From Paenibacillus puerhi (GTDB lineage: Bacteria > Bacillota > Bacilli > Paenibacillales > NBRC-103111): 64,000 nucleotides of DNA. Position numbers and translations under genes: made by a program. The stretch covers positions 1-64,000 of the forward strand of contig NZ_WUWM01000023.1 in the NCBI RefSeq assembly GCF_009846885.1, read 5' to 3'. The notes under the pieces are model-generated. The model made no database searches and had not been told where the DNA came from. It was given only the letters and a program-made list of their open reading frames with translations. Positions 5,644 to 38,917 of this stretch are shown here, piece by piece. Positions within the stretch are counted from its first letter, which is position 1. Every line of letters begins with the position of its first letter.

Positions 5644-5682
5644 ATTAAAAATTCACCTCCCTAGTAAGATAAACCAGAACGT

Positions 5683-7050
5683 TTAGAACGGAAATTTCAT
5701 CCCGCGACCCATTTTCTTCAGCTGCTTCATCTGCTTGGCGCCCTTCGGCCCCATCATGCCGGAGAATTGCTTCATCATCTTGCGCATTTCGTCGAACTGC
5801 TTGATGAAGCGGTTCACATCCTGTACCGAGTTGCCGCTGCCCGCTGCAAGACGCTTACGGCGGCTTGGGGACAACAGGTCCGGATTTTGCCTTTCTTCCT
5901 TGGTCATCGACTTGACGATGGCCGCTACGCGGGACATCTGCTTGTCGTCGACCTTGACATCCTTCATTCCCTTGATCTTGCCTGCTCCTGGCAGCATATC
6001 GAGCAGTTGATCAAGCGGGCCGAGCTTCTTGACTTGCTCCATCTGCTCCAGGAAATCATCGAAGGTGAACTCCGCCTGCCTGAGCTTGCGTTCCATCTCC
6101 TTAGCCTTGTCCGCATCGATACCGGCCTGCGCCTTCTCGATCAGAGTCAGCATATCTCCCATACCGAGTATCCGGGAGGCCATCCGCTCCGGGTGGAACG
6201 GCTCAAGGGCATCCATCTTCTCGCCCATCGCCGCGAACTTAATCGGACAGCCGGTAACCGCCTTGACGGATAATGCAGCCCCGCCGCGCGTATCGCCGTC
6301 GAGCTTCGTGAGCACGACGCCCGTCAGCTGCAGCTGCTTGTGGAAGCTATCGGCCACATTCACGGCGTCCTGCCCTGTCATCGCATCCACGACGAGCAAG
6401 ATCTCATCCGGCGATACAGCCTCGACGATCTGCTTAAGCTCATCCATCAAGCTCTCGTCGATATGTAATCGGCCTGCCGTATCGATGATCAGATAGTCGT
6501 GATGCTGGTCCTTAGCTTGTTGAAGCGCCTGCTTGGCGATCTCGACCGGGCTTACTTTATCGCCGAGCGAGAAAACCGGCACCTTCAGCTGCTCGCCGAG
6601 AACCTGCAGCTGCTTGATCGCAGCCGGACGGTAGATATCGGCCGCCGCCAGCAGCGGACGGTGATTCTGCTGCTGCAGCATCTTGGCCAGCTTGCCTGTC
6701 GTCGTCGTCTTCCCTGCGCCCTGCAAGCCGGCCATCATGATAACGGTAGGCGGCTTGTTCGCTTTAGCCAGCTTGCTGTTCGTACCGCCCATCAAGGCAG
6801 TCAGCTCTTTATTTACGATATCGACGACAATCATGCCGGGAGTAAAGCTATCCAGCACTTCCTGGCCGATTGCCCGTTCCTTCACTTTGGCCACGAATTC
6901 CTTGACGACTTTAAAGTTGACGTCCGCTTCGAGCAGGGCCAGACGCACTTCGCGAAGCGCCTCGTTAACGTCGTCCTCGGTCAGCTTCCCTTTGCCTCTC
7001 AGCTTGCTGAATACACTCTGAAGCCGGCTGGATAATCCTTCGAATGCCAT
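5683..7050 (-). CDS. ffh: Signal recognition particle GTPase Ffh (SRP54)
   Basis: Ffh binds signal sequences and the 4.5S/scRNA and docks with FtsY to deliver membrane proteins. The 455 residues show an N domain, then a GTPase with P-loop GLQGAGKTTTTGK, the DTAGR box and TKLDGDTRGG. A methionine-rich M domain follows, ending GAKQMKQLKKMGRGMKFPF. It forms a small operon with ylxM, 43 bases upstream. Confidence 0.98.
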   Translation of the reverse strand: MAFEGLSSRLQSVFSKLRGKGKLTEDDVNEALREVRLALLEADVNFKVVKEFVAKVKERAIGQEVLDSFTPGMIVVDIVNKELTALMGGTNSKLAKANKPPTVIMMAGLQGAGKTTTTGKLAKMLQQQNHRPLLAAADIYRPAAIKQLQVLGEQLKVPVFSLGDKVSPVEIAKQALQQAKDQHHDYLIIDTAGRLHIDESLMDELKQIVEAVSPDEILLVVDAMTGQDAVNVADSFHKQLQLTGVVLTKLDGDTRGGAALSVKAVTGCPIKFAAMGEKMDALEPFHPERMASRILGMGDMLTLIEKAQAGIDADKAKEMERKLRQAEFTFDDFLEQMEQVKKLGPLDQLLDMLPGAGKIKGMKDVKVDDKQMSRVAAIVKSMTKEERQNPDLLSPSRRKRLAAGSGNSVQDVNRFIKQFDEMRKMMKQFSGMMGPKGAKQMKQLKKMGRGMKFPF

Positions 7051-7093
7051 CCGTGGTCACCACCTTCAAGGGAATAATTCTTTACCTCAGCAG

Positions 7094-7444
7094 TCAATCC
7101 AACGCCTGCAGCCTGTCCGCCAGCTCCTTCAGGGTCTTCCCCTGCTCGCCGGGCATCCCGCCCGCCAGCTCGTGCAGACTATGAAGCAGCTTCTGCCTCT
7201 GCTCATGCTTATCGAGCAGCCGCAGCTTGGATTCATACTCCTCGAGCACCGACTCGGCACGCTTGATATGCTCGTAAACGGCCTGCCGGCTAATATTGAA
7301 TTCCGTTGCGATTTCGCCAAGCGAATAATCGTCGTGGAAATAATGCTTCATAAACGTTTGCTGCTTTTCCGTCAACAGCCGCTCGTAGAAGTCGAACAGC
7401 AGGTTGATCCGGTTTGTTTTCTGAAGGGCGCTTACTTCCGTCAC
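7094..7444 (-). CDS. ylxM: SRP-associated helix-turn-helix protein YlxM (UPF0122)
   Basis: YlxM is a small DNA-binding-like protein coded beside ffh; in streptococci it stimulates the SRP GTPase. The 116 residues carry the typical [20 protein letters not shown] and a sigma-like helix-turn-helix around [24 protein letters not shown]. The start is GTG at 7444, with AAGGGGGT upstream. It is the first gene after its own strong promoter. Confidence 0.93.
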
Positions 7445-7499
7445 TTTGCGTTACCCCCTTCGTTAAGGTAAATCCCTTGACACCTAAGCAACATCACCT

Positions 7500-7528
7500 A
7501 TCATACAGAATCAGGCATAGGATGTCAA
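7500..7528 (-). promoter_or_regulatory. Sigma-A promoter of ylxM-ffh
   Basis: On the minus strand TTGACA (7523-7528) and TATGAT (7500-7505) are 17 bases apart, about 55 bases upstream of the ylxM start. It lets the SRP genes be transcribed independently of ftsY-smc. Confidence 0.75.
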
Positions 7529-7561
7529 GTCTTTCTCCTTGTCAGCTATAGCCCTCGGCAT

Positions 7562-8551
7562 TCAGTACTGCTTATCGGCCTCGGCTATCCACTTATTGAA
7601 GAGCGCGTGCACGAACTGGTCGGAGTCAAATGGCTGCAGATCGTCCTGCTTTTCCCCAAGACCGACAAACTTGACCGGCAGCTTAAGCTCTTGGCGAATA
7701 GCAACGACTATGCCGCCTTTTGCCGTTCCGTCCAGCTTGGTCAGCACGAGACCTGTCAGGCCCGACTTCTCGTCGAACAGCTTCGCCTGCATCAAGGCGT
7801 TCTGGCCTGTCGTGGCGTCGAGCACCAGCAGCACCTCGTGAGGAGCATCGGGCACTTCGCGGCGAATGACGCGGAAAATTTTGTTCAGCTCCTCCATCAG
7901 GTTCACCTTATTTTGCAGCCGTCCCGCTGTATCGCAGAGCAGCACGTCGGCGCCGCGCGACTTGGCCGCCTGCAGCGCGTCGAACATCACTGCGGCCGGG
8001 TCGGAGCCCGCTTGCTGCTTGATGACGTCTACGCCTACCCGGCGTCCCCATTCTTCAAGCTGCTCGATCGCGCCAGCGCGGAAGGTGTCGCCGGCCGCCA
8101 GCATAACCTTCTTGCCTTGCGATTTGAGCAAATGAGCCAGCTTGCCGATCGTCGTCGTTTTGCCGACGCCATTGACGCCGACAAACAGAATAACCGTCAA
8201 ACCGGCATCCGCCATGTTGAGGCCCGCCTGCTCGTCGCCCTTGAGGAGAGCGATGATTTTCTCCGACAGGATGGGCTGCAGCTCACTCGGACTTTCAATT
8301 TTACGCTTGCGCACTTCGGCACGCAGCTCTTCAATCAGCTTGAGCACCGTGTTCACGCCTACGTCAGCGCCGATCAGAATTTCCTCTAGCTCTTCGTAGA
8401 ATTCCTCGTCAATTTTTTTGCGTCTGGAAAACAAGTCATCCACACGCTCGATGAACACATCGCGCGTCTTGGCAAGACCTTCCTTGAACTTATTTGTTAC
8501 CTCTTCCGTCTTCGAGGAAATGCTTTCTTTCAACCGTTTAAAAAAATTCAT
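7562..8551 (-). CDS. ftsY: Signal recognition particle receptor FtsY
   Basis: FtsY is the membrane-associated SRP receptor GTPase. The 329 residues start with an amphipathic MNFFKRLKESI. The N domain and GTPase follow, with GVNGVGKTTTIGKLA, DTAGRLQNKVNLMEELNK and TKLDGTAKGG. Length is typical of Gram-positive FtsY, which lack the long acidic A domain. It follows smc by 81 bases. Confidence 0.97.
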   Translation of the reverse strand: MNFFKRLKESISSKTEEVTNKFKEGLAKTRDVFIERVDDLFSRRKKIDEEFYEELEEILIGADVGVNTVLKLIEELRAEVRKRKIESPSELQPILSEKIIALLKGDEQAGLNMADAGLTVILFVGVNGVGKTTTIGKLAHLLKSQGKKVMLAAGDTFRAGAIEQLEEWGRRVGVDVIKQQAGSDPAAVMFDALQAAKSRGADVLLCDTAGRLQNKVNLMEELNKIFRVIRREVPDAPHEVLLVLDATTGQNALMQAKLFDEKSGLTGLVLTKLDGTAKGGIVVAIRQELKLPVKFVGLGEKQDDLQPFDSDQFVHALFNKWIAEADKQY

Positions 8552-8632
8552 CCGCCATCACTGCCTTCATCTTTGAATTTATCTATGAACCCGGGGGGGA
8601 ATATGCCTGCCCGGGCCCTGAATTTCCTAACT

Positions 8633-11600
8633 TTAGCCTGCCTCCATCACGGCATCGTCCTCTTCCAGTCGTACGGACACAAGCTTGGATACGCCGCCTT
8701 CCTCCATCGTCACGCCATAGAGCACATCGGCCTCTTCCATCGTTCCTTTGCGGTGAGTAACGACGATGAACTGGGTTTGCTCCGAGAACTCGCGCAAATA
8801 TTCGGCAAAGCGCGTCACATTGGCTTCATCCAGCGCCGCCTCGACTTCATCGAGCACACAGAAGGGAACCGGTTTAACCCGGATAATGGAGAACAACAGC
8901 GCGATAGCAGTAAGCGCCCGCTCTCCTCCGGAGAGCAGCTGCAGATTTTGCAGCTTCTTGCCCGGCGGCTGTGCGACGATCTCGATGCCCGTATCGAGCA
9001 AATTATCGGGCTCGGAGAGGATGAGATCCGCCCGCCCGCCGCCAAACAGCTTGGCGAACACGATTACGAAATGAGAGCGAATCGCATCGAACGTCGTACG
9101 GAATCGCTTGGCCATCTCCTCATCCATCTCGCGAATGACGCCGTACAGCGCTGTCTTGGCTTCCACCAAATCATTCTTCTGCTCCGACAAGAAGGTAAAG
9201 CGCTCGTTCACGCGCTGGTACTCTTCGATGGCGCCCAGGTTAACCTCGCCGAGAATAGCGATTTCGCGCTTGAGGTCCCGCACCAGATTTTGAGTGCCGA
9301 GCACGTCCTCCGGCACCGGATAACGTTCCTTAGCGCGCTCGTAGCTAAGCTCGTAATCATCCAGCAGCTTCTTCAGCAAATTCTCCAGCTCCACGTCAAG
9401 CCGGTTCACCTTCACTTCCGTCTGCCTGAGCTGCTCTTCAATGCTGCGAAGCTGATTGCGCTGCTCGCGGGTTTTGTTCTCCTCCGCCTCTATCCTTGCA
9501 TTCCAGCTTGCCCGCTCGGCCCGGTTCAGCTCCAGTTCCTCGGCTGCCTGCTGCTTCTTCAGCTTCAGGTCGTTCAGTTGCTCGATCTGGCGTATCGTCT
9601 CCTGATCATGATGCTCCATATCGTACTCCAGCTGGCGCAGGGACTCCCTGCATGTCTCCAGCTCTCCCGAAATCACATTCAGCTCGGCGACAACCCGGCG
9701 CTCCATCTCCTGCAGCGCTTGCTTGGCCTGCGACTGCGACGCGACCTGTACTTTAAGATCCGTCATCTGCGACTGCAGCTCCTCCTTGGCCGATTCGCTC
9801 GCCTTGCGGCGAATTTCGGCCTCGCGGATCGCCTGCTGCAAAGCCGCTTCTTCCTCCCGAAGCCGCTCCATCGCCGCCAGCGCCGCCTCCCGGCGACGCT
9901 GCAGGTCGCTGCGCTCCGCGCTCATCGACTCGTCATCGGCGCCATGAAGCGCAAGCTGCTCCGCCACCTGCCTGGACTCGCCCGCAAGCGGCTCCAGAGA
10001 GGCTCGGATCTGCTGCTCCTCGATCCGGCGCGCCTCCCCCAGCTCCCGCAGTTCGTCGAGCTGCTTGCCCGCGTCGCCGATCTCGCGCCGCATCGCATCG
10101 GCCTTAGCCTTATAGCTAGCCAGCTGTTCTTGAGATACGACGATTTCCTTATCCATCTCCTCGATCTGCCGCTGCCGGCTGAGCAAGCTCGTCGCCTTCC
10201 TCTGCTGGCTGCCGCCCGTCATCGAGCCCCCAGGGTTCACGACATCCCCTTCCAGCGTGACGACCCGGTACCGGTATTGAACGCGGGCTGCTATCTTGTT
10301 CGCCAGCTCCAGCGATTGGGCGATGATGACGTTGCCGAGGAGACTGCCGATGATCTGCCGGTATCGATCCTCGAACTGGACCAAATCGACCGCAATCCCG
10401 ACGAACCCCTCCATGCTCTCGATACCCCGCTGTTCGCTTTCGGGGATCGAGCGTGCGCGGATGACGTCCAGCGGAAGAAAGGTCGCCCGGCCTAATTGAC
10501 GACGCTTCAGGAAGCCGATCGCTTCTCGCCCGTGGGCCTCGCTTTGGACCACCACATGCTGAAGCGCACCGCCAAGCGCCGTTTCCATCGCCGTTTCCAC
10601 ATGGGCAGGCACCTTCACCAGCTCCGCGACCGCCCCGTGAATGCCTCGGAGATCCGCACGGTCCTTCGCCTTCAGTACTTCCTTAACCCCATGCATAAAG
10701 CCATCATAATCGCTGGCCATCTCATTCATCGTATCGCGCCGCGAGACCAGCGCCTCTATCTTCTGCTCCCACTTGCGCACAGCCGCCTGGGCCTCTTCCG
10801 AGAGCGCCTGCTTCTCCCGTACGCCTTGACTAAGCTCCAGATACCGGTTGCGCGCCTCTTGAATGCCCGCCAATGCCTTGTCCAGTCTCTTCTCCAGCGC
10901 GGACTTGCGGGCCGCGATGCTCTCCTGCTGATCGAGCCACTTACGGTTTTCGTCGCCCAGCCGATCCAGTCTCCGGCCAAGCGCCTCAAGCTGCTGCTCG
11001 GTATACCGGGCTTCGTTGCGAGCATTAGCCGTCTGGTTCAACACCTCGAGCAGCTCGCCCTTCAGCCGGTCCTCCTCCGCGCTGCTGATGCCGCCGGACA
11101 CCCCGAGCAGACGGTCTTCCTCCGCCTTCAACTGCTGCTGAACTCCGGCCAGCTGATCGGCAACCACGCGCAGCTTCTCGCGAGCTTCACCGAGCTCAGC
11201 CTCCTTCTCCGCCATTCGGCCTTCCAGCTGCCGGGAATTGATCTGCAGTTGAGCGCGATTGGCGGAGTAATTTTTTTTCCGCTCCTTAAGCACCTCTCCC
11301 TGCCCTTCGCATTTCTCGAAGTCTTCGCTGATCTGCAGCAGCTTGCCCTGAAGCTCCTCGATCGCTTCCTCCTTACGGCGAAGCTCCCACCGATCCGTCT
11401 CCAGCTGCGCATCATGCGCGCTGACGAAGCCCGACAGCTCGAGCTGCGATTCCTTGAGCTTGTCCAGACGTTTGTTCGTCTCCTCCCAGGTCTGGTAGAT
11501 CTGCTCGATCTGATACACATACATGGCGATCTCGCTGGACTTGAGCTCCTCCTTCAATTCCTTGAAGCGGATCGCTTTCTCGGACTGGGTGCGCAGCGGG

Positions 11601-30971: not shown

Positions 30972-32660
30972 ATGTCGAATAACCTGGATTCCCGTCAACC
31001 ATAACGAGGTGAGAGGCAGATGGCAACTATCGTTTACCAAAAAGATAAGCGTTCAGGGATAACTTACGCATACGAGTCCGTGTCCTACTGGGACAAAGAG
31101 AAGAAACAATCCCGTGCTAAACGTACACTGATTGGCCGGGTAGACCCACTTTCAGGGAAAATCATCCCCACTGATGGCAGGGGGCGAAAACAAGCGCAAA
31201 AGGCCCCCGCCACTGCAAAAAGAGGGCCAGTTCCCTCGACCCAAACAGCGAGGAAGTTTTACGGCACTACTTATTTGCTTGATGCCATTGGAGAAAAGCT
31301 GGGCATTGCTCAAGACCTGGAGAAATACTTCCCAGGCTTAGTTCAACAACTCTTATCGATCGTCTACTATTGGATCCTTGAGGATAAGAATCCACTGTAC
31401 CGCTTCGAAAAATGGAGCCATATACATAAGCACCCGTACGGAGACAATAGCTCCTCCCAACGAAGCAGCGAACTATTTGCTTCCATAACCGAAGAAGCCA
31501 AAAGCCAGTTCTTCCGCTTGCAAGGAAAGCGGCGAGTAGTCAAAGAATATTGGACTTATGACATCACCTCTATCTCCAGCTATTCAGAGGGGTTGCGCCA
31601 AGTCCAATACGGACGGAATAAAAAAGGTGATCCGCTCGCGCAGCTGAATTTGGCGTTGGTGTTTGCAGAAAGCTCCAACCTGCCGTTTTATTACCACAAG
31701 CTGGCGGAGAACATTCCTGGCGCGAAGACCATTACGAATTTACTCTCTGATTTCTCTACATTCGAGTTCTCTAAGGTGAAGCTGGTCATGGACCGCGGAT
31801 TCTACAGCGAAAGCAACATCAACGCGCTTTATAAGGCACACTTAAAGTTCTTGATTTCGGCCAAAATGTCTCTGGCATTCATTCGGAAAGAATTGGGCGG
31901 CATTTATGATCATTTCTGCTCCTACGAACAATTTAATGAAAAGTATGAACTCTACTGTCATACCGTGCCGACGCAGTGGAGTTATACCGAGCACCGTCCC
32001 TACAAAGGAGACACGCTTACGGAACCGAAGTGCAAGTATATCCACTATTATTACAACATAGACAAGGCTGCTGAGGATGAAAAAGCCTTTGATCGTAAAT
32101 TGATTTGGCTGCTGCAGGTACTGGAGTCTGGAAACAGAGTCCCAGAGCACGAACCGCAGTACAAGAAGTACTTTAGAAGTCAAAACCACGCCTAAACGGG
32201 GTGCGCGTGTTACGATGAAAGAAGACGCTGTGGCCAAGGCCAAAAGGTATTATGGTTACTTCGCCTTAATCACCAATGAAACAATGGATGCCGAGACCGC
32301 GCTAGAACTATACCGAAATAAGGACGTTATGGAGAAAGCCTTTGGCAACTTAAAGGAACGGCTCAATATGCGCCGTACATTGGTTTCCTCCGAGCAGAGC
32401 CTGGATGGAAAGCTGTTTGTTGAGTTCGTGGCCCTCATTTATCTTTCATACATTAAGAAACAAATGCAATATACCGTACTATTGAAGAAGTACACGATGC
32501 AAAGTGCACTAGATAAGCTAGATGTCATTGAATGCTTTGAAGCGCCCGGCCAACAAGTGCGTGTCGGAGAACTGCTGGAGAAACAAAAAGAGATCTACGC
32601 TAGCCTTGGAATAGACCCGCCATCCTCGTTATGAGTGCTCGGGAATCTAGGTTGAATACC
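30972..32660 (+). mobile_element. Insertion sequence, IS1634/IS4-like, about 1.69 kb
   Basis: Imperfect inverted ends flank the transposase. The left end near 30972-31010 contains AACCTGGATTCCCG, then ATAACGAG; the right end near 32621-32660 contains, inverted, AACCTAGATTCCCG, then ATAACGAG. The second open frame ends inside the right end. Exact outer borders and a target duplication could not be fixed. The element lies at the edge of the low-GC island. Confidence 0.75.
31020..32634 (+). pseudogene. IS1634/IS4-like DDE transposase, frameshifted
   Basis: The first frame (31020-32195, 391 residues) begins MATIVYQKDKRSGITYAYES and includes LVMDRGFYSESNINALYKA of the DDE domain. The second (32215-32634) contains YYGYFALITNETMDAE and the ELYRNKDVMEKAFGNLKERL region with the final catalytic Glu. 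Dropping one base near 32172-32175 joins them into one frame (YKKYFEVKTTPKRGVRVTMKEDAV), about 537 residues. A single-base insertion has therefore broken the enzyme, unless it is a sequencing error or programmed shift; no slippery heptamer is evident. Confidence 0.85.
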
Positions 32661-32904: not shown

Positions 32905-33675
32905 CTATGTTGCTTTTGTCTTTACTATAGTCATTTTTATTGAATTAAGAGCATTAAAGCCTTCAACATACTCCTCTACTGAAGGAGACGTAAGATTGCA
33001 GGCGAAAAGATGGTTACGAAAAGCAAAAAATAGTATAATATCTCCACTTGTCATTTTCCCAATTTCGTAATGATAGATTTGATGAGTAATAAGTTCTCCA
33101 TAATCATCATATCTAACAGACAATGTAAGGTCTTCCTTTTCCGGATAAACAGTATATCCAAACTCCCAAAAGCTACCTGGGTCTGCAAACCGTGAAAAAC
33201 GTCTGGCTCTGTCGTGATCAGAAGTATAAGGATCAATATTTCCTTCAGTTAGCAATGCTTCGAGCCCAATCTTTAATAACATTCTAACTATAAATGAATC
33301 TTGCTTATGGCTATGCTTAGGAATAAGTAACGATGTACTATCAGTTTTGATTAAGACATTACTGTATTCACCAGTTAATATAATATGATCTAATCCTAAC
33401 GGATAAATAAATAAATTTGAATCTAATTGAGCCAAAGGACTCTTCTTCTTTTTTGTTTTTATGTTCGCAGCAACTCTCTCAATATTAAATGGAGGATTAT
33501 TTAATGCCTCTCCTTCTATTTTTGAACCAAAGTACTGGTTGCACGAATCACAAACATATCCTAACGGCAGTACTAAATCATCATTGCCCAATGATTCAGG
33601 AATGACATGTTCTATTTTTAAAAAAGATACATCTCTTCTCAAACAAAATAAACATCTACCCCTTGGAATTTCCAA
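32905..33675 (-). CDS. HNH-type endonuclease-like protein
   Basis: The 256 residues start with CLFC (8-11), EHVIPESLG (22-30) and CDSCNQYFG (42-50). Together these form a zinc-bound HNH fold of the HNH_5-like type. The remaining 200 residues are not recognised; they are beta-rich and contain CRIS-unrelated, non-repeated sequence. Such proteins occur in phage defence and mobile islands as nucleases. The gene has clearly lower GC than the flanking chromosome. It stands alone between the IS and a GNAT gene, on the same strand as the latter. Confidence 0.7.
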   Translation of the reverse strand: MEIPRGRCLFCLRRDVSFLKIEHVIPESLGNDDLVLPLGYVCDSCNQYFGSKIEGEALNNPPFNIERVAANIKTKKKKSPLAQLDSNLFIYPLGLDHIILTGEYSNVLIKTDSTSLLIPKHSHKQDSFIVRMLLKIGLEALLTEGNIDPYTSDHDRARRFSRFADPGSFWEFGYTVYPEKEDLTLSVRYDDYGELITHQIYHYEIGKMTSGDIILFFAFRNHLFACNLTSPSVEEYVEGFNALNSIKMTIVKTKAT

Positions 33676-33844: not shown

Positions 33845-33888
33845 GAACGGTAGTTCCACAACTCAATTTGAGTGCGGCGCTACCGTTC
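33845..33888. other. Two-part inverted repeat between the HNH and GNAT genes
   Basis: GAACGGTAG (33845-33853) pairs with CTACCGTTC (33880-33888), and ACTCAA pairs with TTGAGT inside it. It lies just downstream of the GNAT gene on the minus strand and could end that transcript, though the U-tract is poor. Confidence 0.5.
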
Positions 33889-33934
33889 TAGCAATATTCT
33901 GTTAATTTGTTTAGTTTGTCATTACCAGTTTTAA

Positions 33935-34483
33935 TTATTTCAAGTACCCGTTAAATACATACTCAATTGAATCTGGTTTATATATTCCGCAAATTTCTTG
34001 TGTTTTTTCGAATTTGTATTTTTCAATGTGATACATAAACATTTCAATTCGGTCTTCCGAGATAGTTATAATTGGTTTTCTTGTGCCTAGGTATTCAAAA
34101 CACCTTTCAAAAAGTTCTGTACCTATTCCTTTATTTTTATAATCTTGATGAACACGAAAAGTACAAATTTTCTTTTCATCCTTTGTTTTTTTAAGAATAG
34201 CAATTCCACTAAGAATTGCTTGAGGATTCCCCTCAATCTCGGAGAGAACAACCAATATTTCCCTCTGTCCATTCTTTTTTTCAACTTCAGGAATCACAAC
34301 ATTATAAAACCACTCTTCAAATTGCGGATAGCTCTCTGACAAGTCTTTTAAATAGTTATATAACTTATCCTTAGACTTTTCGCCTATTTCACTAATAATA
34401 AATTTTCTTAATTCACTCGGTTCTATTTCAGATATTTTGAGAAATATATTCTTAACAATGGATACTTCCACTATTGGAAACAT
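33935..34483 (-). CDS. GNAT-family N-acetyltransferase
   Basis: The 182 residues have an N-terminal helical part with ESYPQFEEWFYNVV and a GNAT core. The core includes the acetyl-CoA motif HQDYKNKGIGTELFERCFEYL and a C-terminal MFMYHIEKYKFEKTQ. The acceptor is unknown. It is similar in order and sequence to the GNAT segment inside the PIN fusion at 36207-37706. It ends next to a hairpin and starts 6 bases from the stop of the membrane-anchored protein gene, so the two form an operon. Confidence 0.75.
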   Translation of the reverse strand: MFPIVEVSIVKNIFLKISEIEPSELRKFIISEIGEKSKDKLYNYLKDLSESYPQFEEWFYNVVIPEVEKKNGQREILVVLSEIEGNPQAILSGIAILKKTKDEKKICTFRVHQDYKNKGIGTELFERCFEYLGTRKPIITISEDRIEMFMYHIEKYKFEKTQEICGIYKPDSIEYVFNGYLK

Positions 34484-34489
34484 CTCCTT

Positions 34490-35482
34490 TTAATTAAAAA
34501 GAAACTGAGACAACCAATTTCCACCCACACCAGCAAATGTCCCAAGAAGAACAATTCCTCCTATGTAACAAGAAATAACAAAGGTCGTGCCCTTTTTGTA
34601 TTGAAATCGGGATAAATCGGAAAAATCTTCAACATATTTTTTTATAGACTCTCCTGTATGAGGATCAATGACTTTCTTAGCCTTGCTCTTCATATGATAA
34701 GCGATAATGTTGTAATCAACTCCTTCTATATAATCTTTCCACAGATCGTTCTCTAACATCCTACTATTAATGTCTTTACCATACTGAATAATTACATCAT
34801 TAGCATTTCTCAGTATAAGATAGTGTACTGCTAAAAAATTAAATTTATATCCTTTTTGAAACTGTTCCCTTAACTCTTCACTACAACTACGAATATCATT
34901 TAATCTAAAATCAATAATCTCAGTGTTTGTAAAATGGTCATTTAAAAAGCTCACTCCTTGAATTTCATTGTTAATTAGCTTAATATCATTTTTATTGACT
35001 TTTAAACGGAAGCGAAAATAATATCTTTTTATTACATCTAGTTTAATTCCTTTAATGTCTAATTCAATTATCGTACCAGGAGTAACTGATCTACTTTTAC
35101 ACTTTCTAAGTATAAGTTGGTCTTCCTTATCTAAGGAATAGATGATAAAATCCGGTTTATTTTTCACACCGTTTACAATAAGCCGTTTTGGTTGACCTTC
35201 AGTAGTAGTAAAATCTTCATTAAAAATTGCGTTGACTAATTGATTGTTTGAAATAACACTACCAAGATCAGTAATTTGAGTGCTATCAATCTTAAATGGT
35301 GCATACAAAAAGACTTTATCGATTTTTGTAACATCCTCAATCAAAAGACCAAAGTCAAAACAATACGTCTTATTCTTTACGTTCTGATCCCACAAATTAA
35401 TATGTACAGTTGCTTCTTTATTTGGGTCAAGATTGGAATCCTGTACTGAATACCATAAAGCAAAACTTCTCAAATCTAACAC
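34490..35482 (-). CDS. Unrecognised protein with C-terminal membrane anchor
   Basis: The 330-residue protein is not recognised. Most of it looks like soluble alternating strands and charged helices. Near the end a hydrophobic segment of about 25 residues (FVISCYIGGIVLLGTFAGVG) precedes WLSQFLFN, so it is probably tail-anchored with the bulk in the cytoplasm. It is co-transcribed with the GNAT gene and divergent from the kinase-PIN-ASCH operon. The context suggests a defence or stress role. Function unknown. Confidence 0.6.
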   Translation of the reverse strand: MLDLRSFALWYSVQDSNLDPNKEATVHINLWDQNVKNKTYCFDFGLLIEDVTKIDKVFLYAPFKIDSTQITDLGSVISNNQLVNAIFNEDFTTTEGQPKRLIVNGVKNKPDFIIYSLDKEDQLILRKCKSRSVTPGTIIELDIKGIKLDVIKRYYFRFRLKVNKNDIKLINNEIQGVSFLNDHFTNTEIIDFRLNDIRSCSEELREQFQKGYKFNFLAVHYLILRNANDVIIQYGKDINSRMLENDLWKDYIEGVDYNIIAYHMKSKAKKVIDPHTGESIKKYVEDFSDLSRFQYKKGTTFVISCYIGGIVLLGTFAGVGGNWLSQFLFN

Positions 35483-35610
35483 CTCATTATCTTAAACTCT
35501 TCTCAAGCATTACTTCAAGTAGAATCAAGATGCTAAACACCTATATTATACTTACTATACTCCTGTTTATTCAATCTTGATTTACATGCCCTCTCACACA
35601 AGTAAAATGA

Positions 35611-35638
35611 TTCCAATCAAAAGGGTTCATGATATAAT
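35611..35638 (+). promoter_or_regulatory. Promoter of the kinase-PIN-ASCH operon
   Basis: TATAAT (35633-35638) with a weak -35 TTCCAA (35611-35616) 16 bases upstream. GGAGGGAAATGA lies just before the first start codon at 35671. Confidence 0.55.
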
Positions 35639-35670
35639 AAACATGTAGAGTTTTAATTGGAGGGAAATGA

Positions 35671-36207
35671 ATGAAAAATCTCATCTTCATGGGAGGAATA
35701 CATGGAGTAGGAAAAACAACTTTTTGCAACGAACTCTCTAATAGGTACCCGCTATCATCATTCTCAGCGAGTAGAATTATTTCTGACATAAAAAAACAAA
35801 AATTCACTTCAAACAAGCAAATCACAGATATAGATAAAAATCAAGATTTTCTTATACAAGGAATTGAGCAAATAGAATCAGCTTCTATAATCAATATTAT
35901 TGATGGTCATTTTTGCTTAATTGATAAGAAAAACAACATCTCAAGAATACCTAAAGAAATATTTACTAAACTTGAACCTATTCTACTGATTGTTGTGATA
36001 GATTCGGTAAATAAAATCATAGACAGGCTTCAAACCAGAGATAAACTAGTCTACTCCCCATTATTCATCGAATCTTTTCAAAATGAAGAAATCAAGTATG
36101 CAAAGATGATAGCAGAAATGCTAGGCAAACCGCTCTTCATTTTCAATAATACGCCCGAATCAAAACTCGAATTACATGAATTTATCACCGAGCTGGGAGT
36201 GATATAA
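35671..36207 (+). CDS. P-loop kinase-like ATP-binding protein
   Basis: The 178 residues begin MKNLIFMGGIHGVGKTTF, a Walker A (GIHGVGKT, 9-16) in the style of AAA_33/adenylate-kinase-like small-molecule kinases. ILLIVVIDSVNKIIDRLQTRDK provides a Walker B-like strand and a lid-type arginine. The substrate is unknown. The stop overlaps the start of the PIN fusion by one base (TAATG), so the products are coupled. GC is low compared with the flanks. Confidence 0.7.
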   Translation: MKNLIFMGGIHGVGKTTFCNELSNRYPLSSFSASRIISDIKKQKFTSNKQITDIDKNQDFLIQGIEQIESASIINIIDGHFCLIDKKNNISRIPKEIFTKLEPILLIVVIDSVNKIIDRLQTRDKLVYSPLFIESFQNEEIKYAKMIAEMLGKPLFIFNNTPESKLELHEFITELGVI

Positions 36208-37706
36208 TGAGAGTTTTACTAGATACAAACATCATTATACATAGAGAAACAAGTTCAATTGTAAAGAATGAAATTGGAATCTTATTCAGATGGCTTGACA
36301 AACTAAAATACTCTAAGTGTGTGCACCCACTAACAGCTAGTGAGTTGCAAAAACATAGAGATCAAAAAACTGTTAATTCTATGTTGATAAAACTTGATAG
36401 TTACCATCTATTAAAAACTGAAGCACCGTGGAATACATATTTACAAGAATTGTCACATAAATACGACAAAAATACGAATGATGTCAACGACTCGAAAATT
36501 TTAAACGAGTTAATTGCAGGAAGAGTCGATATTCTTATCACGGAAGACCGAAAAATGCATTTTAAAGCCGCAAGGCTTAAATTTGCTGATAAAGTGTTTA
36601 CAATTGATTCTTTCTTAGAGAAGGTTACCAGCGAACATCCTGAATTAATTCAGTACAAAGTCCTCGCTGTCACAAAAGAGTACTTTGGCAATATTGATAT
36701 TAAGGATGATTTTTTTAATAGTTTAAAAGAAGATTACCCTGGGTTTGAAAATTGGTTTAATAAAAAGTCTGATGAAATGGCCTATATATGTAAAATTGAC
36801 GAAAAGATCTCCGCCTTCCTATATTTGAAAATTGAAGGAACTGATGAGAACTACAGTAATATTACTCCCCCGTTTGCCAAAAAACGTAGGCTAAAAATAG
36901 GCACATTCAAAGTCACTCTAAATGGTTACAAACTCGGAGAACGGTTTATTAAAATTATTATAGATAATGCATTAAAAGCACGGGTAGACGAAATTTATGT
37001 TACTATTTTTGATAGAACAATTGACCAAATTAGGTTAATCAACCTTCTTTCCGACTACGGCTTTACCAAACATGGATTAAAGGATGGTTGTGAACTTGTT
37101 TATACACGCGATTTTTTGCCCGCCTTTGATGAAAGCAATCCAAAGTTTACTTTCCCATATGTTAGCTCGAACAAAGAAATATTCCTAGCGCCTATTTATC
37201 AAGAATATCATACAAATCTCCTGCCCGACTCTATCTTACGAACTGAGTCACCTAAGAATTATGTTGAAAATGAACCATTTAGAAACGCGATTAGCAAAGT
37301 ATTTATCTCTCGTTCAATGGAAAGAAATTTATGTCCAGGGGATATAATTATCTTCTATAGGACGGGAGGTTACTACACAAGTGTTGTCACTACTCTTGGC
37401 ATTGTTGAAAGTGTTAATAATAATATAGCTGACCCGGAGCAATTCATCTCTCTCTGTAAAAAAAGAAGTGTTTTTAACGATAACGAACTTCTAGAATTTT
37501 GGCATTTCAAAAGGAGCAAACCCTTCATTGTAAATTTCTTGTATTCATATACTTTTCCAAATCGGATCAATATGAAAAGATTAATTGAGTTAGGAGTTAT
37601 CCAAAATGTTCATTCCGCCCCGAGGGGGTTTATGAGAATAACATACCAAAATTTCAAGGACATCATTCGGGAGGCGCAAGTCGATGAACGTATTATTATC
37701 AATTAA
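36207..37706 (+). CDS. PIN-GNAT fusion with C-terminal PUA/EVE-like domain
   Basis: Residues 1-140 form a PIN ribonuclease domain with all four acidic positions (Asp6, Glu46, Asp95, Asp114). Residues about 150-305 resemble a GNAT fold; the second CoA-binding glycine is missing in GYKLGERFIKI (240-250), so catalysis is doubtful. Residues about 330-480 contain RNLCPGDIIIFYRTGGYY and TLGIVESV, suggesting a PUA-like (EVE/ASCH) reader. It is the middle gene of a coupled trio; the 3' end overlaps the ASCH gene by 23 bases. A targeted RNase acting on tRNA, rRNA or modified RNA is a fair inference. Confidence 0.72.
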   Translation: MRVLLDTNIIIHRETSSIVKNEIGILFRWLDKLKYSKCVHPLTASELQKHRDQKTVNSMLIKLDSYHLLKTEAPWNTYLQELSHKYDKNTNDVNDSKILNELIAGRVDILITEDRKMHFKAARLKFADKVFTIDSFLEKVTSEHPELIQYKVLAVTKEYFGNIDIKDDFFNSLKEDYPGFENWFNKKSDEMAYICKIDEKISAFLYLKIEGTDENYSNITPPFAKKRRLKIGTFKVTLNGYKLGERFIKIIIDNALKARVDEIYVTIFDRTIDQIRLINLLSDYGFTKHGLKDGCELVYTRDFLPAFDESNPKFTFPYVSSNKEIFLAPIYQEYHTNLLPDSILRTESPKNYVENEPFRNAISKVFISRSMERNLCPGDIIIFYRTGGYYTSVVTTLGIVESVNNNIADPEQFISLCKKRSVFNDNELLEFWHFKRSKPFIVNFLYSYTFPNRINMKRLIELGVIQNVHSAPRGFMRITYQNFKDIIREAQVDERIIIN

Positions 37707-38055
37707 GCCTGAGTTTATTGATTTAATTGTCTCGGGTGAAAAACAATATGAATTTAGAAAAACTATATTTAAGCGAAAGGATGTCTCTACAATAATAGTC
37801 TATGCGACTACGCCAGTCAGTAGAGTTGTCGGAGAGTTTGAAGTAGATTACATTCTTTGTAAAGATGTTAACTCGTTGTGGGAAGAGACTAAATCTTTTG
37901 CAGGAGTAGATGAGGATTTTTTCTTCAATTATTTCAACAACAAAGAAAAGGGGTATGCTATTAAGATTAAAAACTTCAACCAATATCCTGAACATAAAAT
38001 GTTAACTGAAATATATCAATCGCCCCCTCCTCAATCATTTGCGTATATTTCCTAG
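37684..38055 (+). CDS. ASCH-domain protein
   Basis: The 123 residues start MNVLLSIKPEFIDLIVSGEKQYEFRK, the ASCH signature (GxKxxEfR) of this PUA-like fold, and continue IIVYATTPVSRVVGEFEVDYIL. ASCH domains are thought to bind RNA; some are amidohydrolases of modified nucleosides. It overlaps the PIN fusion gene by 23 bases, so a joint function is likely, perhaps as substrate reader or antitoxin-like partner. Confidence 0.78.
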   Translation: MNVLLSIKPEFIDLIVSGEKQYEFRKTIFKRKDVSTIIVYATTPVSRVVGEFEVDYILCKDVNSLWEETKSFAGVDEDFFFNYFNNKEKGYAIKIKNFNQYPEHKMLTEIYQSPPPQSFAYIS

Positions 38056-38074
38056 TCTAACACAATAATCATGA

Positions 38075-38109
38075 AAGGCCATCTCCGTTTTGCTTGCGAA
38101 GGTGGCCTT
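38075..38109 (+). terminator. Hairpin after the ASCH gene
   Basis: AAGGCCA (38075-38081) and TGGCCTT (38103-38109) can pair 20 bases after the ASCH stop. The U-tract is weak, so termination is uncertain. Confidence 0.4.
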
Positions 38110-38144: not shown

Positions 38145-38917
38145 TCACCTCGTAAAAAACGGAATAGCGGATTCGTAATATCCTCTTCATACGTATCCTT
38201 ATTGATAAACCGTCCCACCGATGGGTCATTAGTACCTTGCCCTTAGGTAATACAGCCCTGTCTCAGCGTCGTACATTTCCCCAGCATATTTGAACGGATT
38301 GCTTACCTGCTCGACAGGGAGGCCGACCAGATTGCCCCATTCGTCATACTGGTAGCTGTTTTTAATCGTTCCCTGCGTATCGACAATCTGCACAACATCG
38401 CCATGCCCATTATACAAATAGTAATAGGACTGAAATGTAGCGCGATACCATTTGGCCAGCAAGCAATCCGGTCCCCATTTTTCAGGCGAAGTCCATCGGG
38501 CTCGGGTGCATAGTCGAATTCCACGACAGAACCGTTTTTCTAGACATTCGTCAGTTGATCCCACACATTGTATGAATAGTGGCTTAAATTCGGTGCAAAC
38601 AGGTCAGCGGAGTTCTGAACAGTTGTACGATTACCGCGAGCATCGTATGCATACTTGATCACTTCCACAGCTAACCCACAGTATATTCCTACTCATATCA
38701 TAAGTATAACGGTATTCGGATAAGACGACTGTGCCTTTTTGGGTTGCTATCTTTGGTCAGCCGGTTGATTTTGTCATACAAAAAGGTAGACTACAGATAT
38801 GTCCGCTCGGTCACTTGACCTGTTGCATCTGTCACACGGATAAACCGATTAAGCTCGTCATATGCATAGGTGGTACTGCACGAGCGCGGATCAACGTTCG
38901 TCTTCTTCAAACCTGCT
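38145..38917 (-). pseudogene. Decayed RHS/YD-repeat protein fragment
   Basis: Read on the minus strand, pieces of an RHS core appear in different frames: TTYAYDELNRFIRVTDATG, IKYAYDARGNRTTVQNSA, LYNGHGDVVQIVDTQG, YAGEMYDAETGLYYLRARY and DPSVGRFINKDTYEEDI. Stops and frameshifts separate them, for example after RARY at 38229. Only the C-terminal end of the RHS shell is left, without a toxin tip. It marks the right border of the accessory island. Confidence 0.85.

Follow-up and report, generated by a model that had tools for sequence, protein, structure and literature searches.

A cassette of five genes in the window (the whole 64,000-nucleotide stretch of Paenibacillus puerhi DNA that was analysed) is on balance probably an ASCH-restrained, RNA-targeting toxin used against phages, a five-gene form of the (PIN-)GNAT-EVE/ASCH toxin-antitoxin-type module. 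What points to a toxin, from comparison of sequences and from those parts of the literature that were available, is the match to PADLOC PDC-M11, a published toxin-antitoxin prediction, the annotation of phage relatives as GevT and GevA, the constancy of the ASCH partner and the overlap of its gene with that of the fusion, the acids of the PIN domain, the residues shared with ZmASCH, co-occurrence on plasmids and a five-gene copy in Cohnella. Speaking against it are the loop of the fused GNAT, the lack of homology between the ASCH protein and the PUA domain, the loss of ZmASCH Lys53, ASCH genes without the fusion (12/45) and the limited presence of the kinase (40/108 loci) and of the membrane protein u330 (18/108). 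The (PIN-)GNAT-EVE/ASCH system, found across bacteria and archaea, is known from prediction alone in the literature examined, and a dedicated kinase and membrane protein offer direct handles on how it is triggered. Both printed ideas about the family, base acetylation and destruction of acetylated tRNA, are testable on the defined five-gene cassette.

The cassette and its surroundings

32905..33675, minus strand: HNH endonuclease (Pfam HNH_5, E 2.2e-11), adjoining the cassette and outside the block shared with Cohnella
33846..38109, no strand: whole cassette, five genes bounded by two hairpins; the block common to Cohnella
33935..34483, minus strand: stand-alone GNAT (Pfam Acetyltransf_1, E 2.5e-5; PDLC04421, E 3.6e-7)
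34490..35482, minus strand: u330, tail-anchored membrane protein of 330 aa with a beta-rich part and a C-terminal TM helix (model pLDDT 81)
35483..35670, no strand: u330/kinase intergenic region, candidate divergent promoter region (from ORF ends)
35671..36207, plus strand: AAA_17, adenylate-kinase-like P-loop protein, 178 aa (Pfam AAA_17, E 2.4e-14)
36207..37706, plus strand: PIN-GNAT-PUA(EVE-like) fusion, PADLOC PDC-M11A, 499 aa, predicted toxin/effector (PDLC04422, E 1.9e-217)
36207..36608, plus strand: PIN domain of the fusion, residues 1-134, VapC-like (fold match)
36639..37121, plus strand: GNAT domain of the fusion, residues 145-305, with a non-canonical acetyl-CoA loop
37164..37688, plus strand: PUA-superfamily (EVE/ASCH-like) domain of the fusion, residues 320-494
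37684..37706, plus strand: 23-base dual-coded overlap, end of the fusion gene and start of the ASCH gene
37684..38055, plus strand: ASCH protein, PADLOC PDC-M11B, 123 aa, predicted antitoxin (PDLC04425, E 4.2e-50)

The extent of the cassette is given by blastn comparison with Cohnella sp. REN36, in which a single block, 33846-38109 of the window and 5646-9897 of the Cohnella locus (L120), is 89% identical at the DNA level, with nothing further matched outside it within the 17.5 kb fetched. The cassette moved as one block. Its stand-alone GNAT and u330 genes are on the minus strand and its kinase, fusion and ASCH genes on the plus strand, with an imperfect inverted repeat (35612-35661) inside the intergenic region from which the two groups diverge. 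The left-end hairpin, AACGGTAG..CTACCGTT, was read from the sequence at 33846-33887, and the right-end hairpin is at 38075-38109. In Gordonibacillus kamchatkensis, Paenibacillus sediminis and P. woosongensis the blastn similarity is limited to kinase, fusion and ASCH. Genes around the Cohnella block encode a large serine recombinase, a ResIII/DEAD helicase and a protein that matches SspH and FtsK.

A set of 72,556 plasmid records, 33 of which hold the fusion gene, was searched with every window protein separately. The neighbouring HNH endonuclease has matches in seven records, with the fusion gene present in just one of them when counted by eye, and it lies outside the block shared with L120; it is a non-dedicated neighbour that serves as a negative control for the dedication counts given below. 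Further to the left, at 31020-32634 on the plus strand, is a transposase-like gene split in two ORFs of 391 and 139 aa, each weakly matching DDE_Tnp_1; this broken gene lies at the left side of the low-GC island. Immediately to the right of the cassette is a short RHS-repeat fragment (38229-38564, minus strand).

The fusion protein and its ASCH partner

The PDLC04422 alignment spans residues 1-498 of the fusion, and its AF2 model (pLDDT 87.1) has fold matches that back the PIN, GNAT and PUA parts, the best match of the C-terminal domain to a PUA fold being ZmASCH (PDB 5GUQ). The PIN domain matches the VapC fold and has all four of its acids intact. The earlier note had described three coupled genes encoding a kinase-like protein, a PIN-GNAT-PUA fusion with an intact PIN, and an ASCH protein; Pfam and PADLOC matches confirm the three, the structure model bears out the GNAT and PUA assignments, and the true PIN and PUA folds whose absence would have counted against that description are both supported. 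The canonical acetyl-CoA loop of GNAT proteins has the motif Q/RxxGxG/A. The fused GNAT departs from this motif, the central loop glycine being replaced by K, R or L in 121 of 123 sequences and the final glycine kept in 122, while K208, K230, Y264, T266 and E296 are residues of its own that are invariant in all 123. Because the usual loop glycine is absent, acetylation by the fused GNAT is doubtful.

For the ASCH protein the PDLC04425 alignment covers residues 1-122, and its profile aligns with ZmASCH (5gus) at E 1.6e-20 across positions 4-122 of 123; ZmASCH entries are the only significant solved relatives, with YqfB not among them. ZmASCH is a nucleic-acid-binding protein with weak cutting activity on single-stranded RNA, and its Tyr47, Lys53 and Ser128 matter, according to the available part of its description (PMC5615036). 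R25, Y40, Q117 and S118 of the partner, invariant in 20 sequences, align to ZmASCH R32, Y47, Q127 and S128, so that two of the three tested residues, Tyr47 and Ser128, have invariant counterparts and the third, Lys53, is not kept. Judged by these alignments, the partner appears to be a full-length relative of ZmASCH that keeps most of the tested cleft residues. Between it and the PUA domain of the fusion there is no sequence homology (hhalign probability 0.6%), and the sequences thus lend no support to a simple mimic.

Genome contigs yielded 336 relatives of the fusion, the best 80 of which are 53-94% identical, span many bacterial phyla and archaea, and all match from residue 8 or earlier. 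Viral contigs yielded 177, and among the best 80 of these, 78 match only from residue 149 or later, three viral representatives being counted as PIN forms by length. Locus counts rest on these nearest matches only (best 80 of 336 genome, best 80 of 177 viral), collapsed at 85% identity to the 108 representatives with at least 1300 bases upstream and at least 700 downstream; 63 are of PIN length and 45 short, and neighbours were counted within 4 kb of the fusion gene. An ASCH gene is present at all 108, as it is in all 33 plasmid records that hold the fusion gene. Searched alone, ASCH gives 45 plasmid matches, with the fusion gene in 33 of these records and absent from 12.

The exact 23-base overlap occurs at 74/108 loci (44/63 PIN-length and 30/45 short, an archaeon, L177, included). 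At 15 of the remaining 34 the beginning of the ASCH peptide is still encoded there in the same frame, from a different start or with the end displaced; in the others such an overlap is short or absent. Such wide retention of the overlap suggests a need to produce fusion and ASCH together. The expectation that the three genes would be conserved as a unit holds for the ASCH partner; the set of three is not fixed, a kinase being present at 26/63 PIN-length and 14/45 short loci. In the archaeal prophage Methanothermobacter phage psiM100 (L008, 3001-4846) a PIN-GNAT-PUA gene and an ASCH-position gene (ORF5), joined by the same 23-base overlap, lie on the right-hand border of the inserted fragment annotated as IFa. 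In Hymenobacter sp. CA2-7 (L128, 4651-11734) two fusion/ASCH loci are arranged back to back; in the second, u330 separates fusion from ASCH and an HNH gene follows.

Kinase, membrane protein and stand-alone GNAT

The kinase-like protein has the Walker A sequence GGIHGVGKTT and D78, H80, R119 and R123 invariant in 11 sequences. Among solved structures its profile hits adenylate kinases, with 1nks as the best natural protein (E 1.2e-8), and its place in the P-loop NMP-kinase sequence family is clear; against the NCBIfam adenylate kinase equivalog it scores 25.6 of 155 bits, far under the cut-off. All ten of its matches in the plasmid records hold the fusion gene, at a distance of 7-1681 bases, and among the representative loci it is near the fusion gene at 40/108.

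Neither Pfam nor PADLOC gives a significant match to the u330 family, and a hydrophobic segment is present in the C-terminal part of 23/23 members. It turned up only beside the fusion system in the sets searched, namely plasmids, viral loci and the genomes of the family and the phylum. Seven plasmid records match u330, and all seven hold the fusion gene, 427-1623 bases away; a profile search of these loci finds fusion, ASCH and u330 in 7/7, the kinase in 6/7 and the stand-alone GNAT in 4/7. At eight viral loci, five with an identical u330, fusion and ASCH adjoin in every case. Two of 104 genomes of the window's family have u330, with the fusion gene adjacent in both, and among 398 genomes of the phylum only the window's own has it. 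Of the representative loci, 18/108 have u330 near the fusion gene (13/63 PIN-length and 5/45 short).

The stand-alone GNAT is a distant paralogue of the fused one (PDLC04421, E 3.6e-7; both match phrog_13728) and keeps the GxG of the acetyl-CoA loop in 11/11 sequences; it is presumably the acetyl-CoA-competent member of the two. It is found at six fusion-gene loci, all with u330, the window and Cohnella copies being near-identical, and u330 is seen with or without it. Ten plasmid records match it, one through the fusion itself; five of the ten hold the fusion gene, and of the nine with a stand-alone copy four have u330.

A quick tree of 107 rows needs nine changes for u330 and 17 for the kinase, and the two therefore behave as exchangeable modules. 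Several arrangements show the variety. On the Nitrosophilus labii plasmid (L214, 5001-8554) u330, stand-alone GNAT, GNAT-PUA and kinase genes are in a row with ASCH on the opposite strand, the row adjoining TniQ/TniB transposition genes. The Rhizobium anhuiense plasmid (L210, 3297-9099) has two fusion systems side by side, one with a short and one with a long fusion gene, both with an ASCH of their own, on the two sides of one u330, and then a kinase. A relative of the stand-alone GNAT is also present, with neither u330 nor fusion, beside Wadjet JetD and DUF262 genes on the Variovorax sp. SRS16 plasmid (L215, 4034-4360).

Possible modes of action and known systems

As an ASCH-restrained toxin the system might work as follows. 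The PUA domain would bring the effector to particular, perhaps modified, RNA, most likely tRNA, where the PIN domain would cleave the bound RNA and the fused GNAT may acylate RNA or bind a CoA-like ligand. ASCH, whose translation from the overlap would keep pace with that of the toxin, would restrain the toxin through direct binding or by sitting on the same RNA, and on infection by a phage that stops host expression or changes the RNA, ASCH would be lost or titrated away and the toxin would arrest the cell. For the adenylate-kinase-like protein the most likely role is that of a nucleotide-dependent regulator, and u330 most likely tethers or senses at the inner membrane face, both as dedicated, optional modules of the toxin system. 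A more specific, tentative version has the tail-anchored beta-saddle protein u330, often with the canonical-loop GNAT pairing with the fused one, as the membrane arm of an anchored RNA-targeting defence complex that would sense entry or events at the membrane and then license the PIN-GNAT-PUA effector, the kinase acting as a nucleotide gate.

It is unlikely that the cassette serves mobile DNA purely as a stabilisation module, an addiction pair for retaining a plasmid, prophage or island, with no role in defence. Such a module would fit the relatives on plasmids and in phage and viral records, the position of GevT-GevA next to cI in the lambdoid phage PhiR47_2 and the movement of the cassette as a block, but a dedicated kinase or membrane protein would be superfluous in an addiction pair, and defence-type genes surround the copy in Cohnella.

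A role as counter-toxin has a lower probability still. In this proposal (Bell et al. 2020, PMC7641849 section 24, in the part of that paper available) the host form, PIN-GNAT-EVE, would counter phage GNAT-EVE toxins by destroying the toxic acetylated aminoacyl-tRNAs that they produce, instead of being a toxin itself. The PIN-length and short forms do split deeply, with two changes over the 107 rows of the tree, and the PIN is there in all of the best 80 of 336 genome relatives when 78 of the best 80 of 177 viral ones match only beyond it. That split, however, is partly a matter of sampling, from nearest matches to different seeds, and both forms keep the same ASCH partner and overlap, which suggests the same self-control in both.

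Least probable is an acylation/deacylation pair, in which the fused GNAT would acetylate an RNA or DNA base, as proposed for the (PIN-)GNAT-EVE family by Iyer et al. 2013 in the account given in PMC7641849, and ASCH would be an enzymatic antitoxin removing the acetyl group as YqfB does. YqfB is an ASCH protein and an N4-acetylcytidine amidohydrolase with the catalytic residues Lys21, Thr24, Arg26 and Glu74, whose Thr24Ala variant is inactive according to the available parts of the two reports (PMC6972931, PMC9599836). The Lys and Arg of its motif are kept here (K20 and R25, invariant in 20 sequences), but the catalytic Thr is replaced by an invariant Glu (E23), so YqfB-type deacetylase chemistry is not supported for the ASCH partner; the loop in 121/123 fused GNATs and the restriction of significant solved relatives to ZmASCH also argue against the pair.

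Bell, Wolf and Koonin (2020, PMC7641849) describe, in the parts available, PIN-GNAT-EVE with ASCH and often AAA_17 as predicted toxin-antitoxin or defence operons near type I restriction-modification or other defence genes, and PIN-less GNAT-EVE in prophages. The same fusion order with its N-terminal PIN fold and acidic site and its middle GNAT fold, the ASCH neighbour and the AAA_17 neighbour are all present here; the membrane protein and stand-alone GNAT, also present here, are not named in the text available, and 'transmembrane' has no occurrence in the main text of that paper. The guess in the earlier note at an RNA-targeting stress or phage-defence module is in agreement with these published predictions, as far as they were available. 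Its statement that no named system has this exact set fails because PADLOC has PDC-M11 (M11A, E 1.9e-217; M11B, E 4.2e-50), section 10 of PMC7641849 describes the operons and the GevT/GevA record exists.

M11A and M11B are both matched nearly full length here by adjacent genes, as the PADLOC definition of PDC-M11 has it. No PDC-M11 model matches the kinase or u330, and the stand-alone GNAT matches M11A models through their GNAT part only. VapC toxins consist of a single domain and are paired with the DNA-binding antitoxin VapB. The PIN domain here is like VapC in fold and four-acid active site, but is part of a fusion and has ASCH as its partner. ZmASCH (ZMO0922, PDB 5GUQ), both the nearest solved relative of that partner and the best match to the PUA fold of the fusion, was studied as a single protein, with a Lys53 that is not kept here, and neither 'toxin' nor 'GNAT' occurs in the main text of the paper on it (PMC5615036, available in part).

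In the record of Escherichia phage PhiR47_2 (PV340567.1) a short relative is annotated as the toxin GevT and the ASCH protein as the antitoxin GevA. GevT, 37% identical to residues 158-499 of the fusion, has no PIN domain, and the start of GevA lies 23 bases inside the end of GevT; next to them the record annotates neither a kinase nor u330. The names are those of the GenBank record, and a literature search found no paper using them for these proteins. The membrane-anchored u330 family and its companion GNAT look new, being unmentioned in the literature examined, part of which was available in excerpt. The three-gene set is an already catalogued predicted defence or toxin-antitoxin candidate, of which the cassette described here is a larger, five-gene variant.
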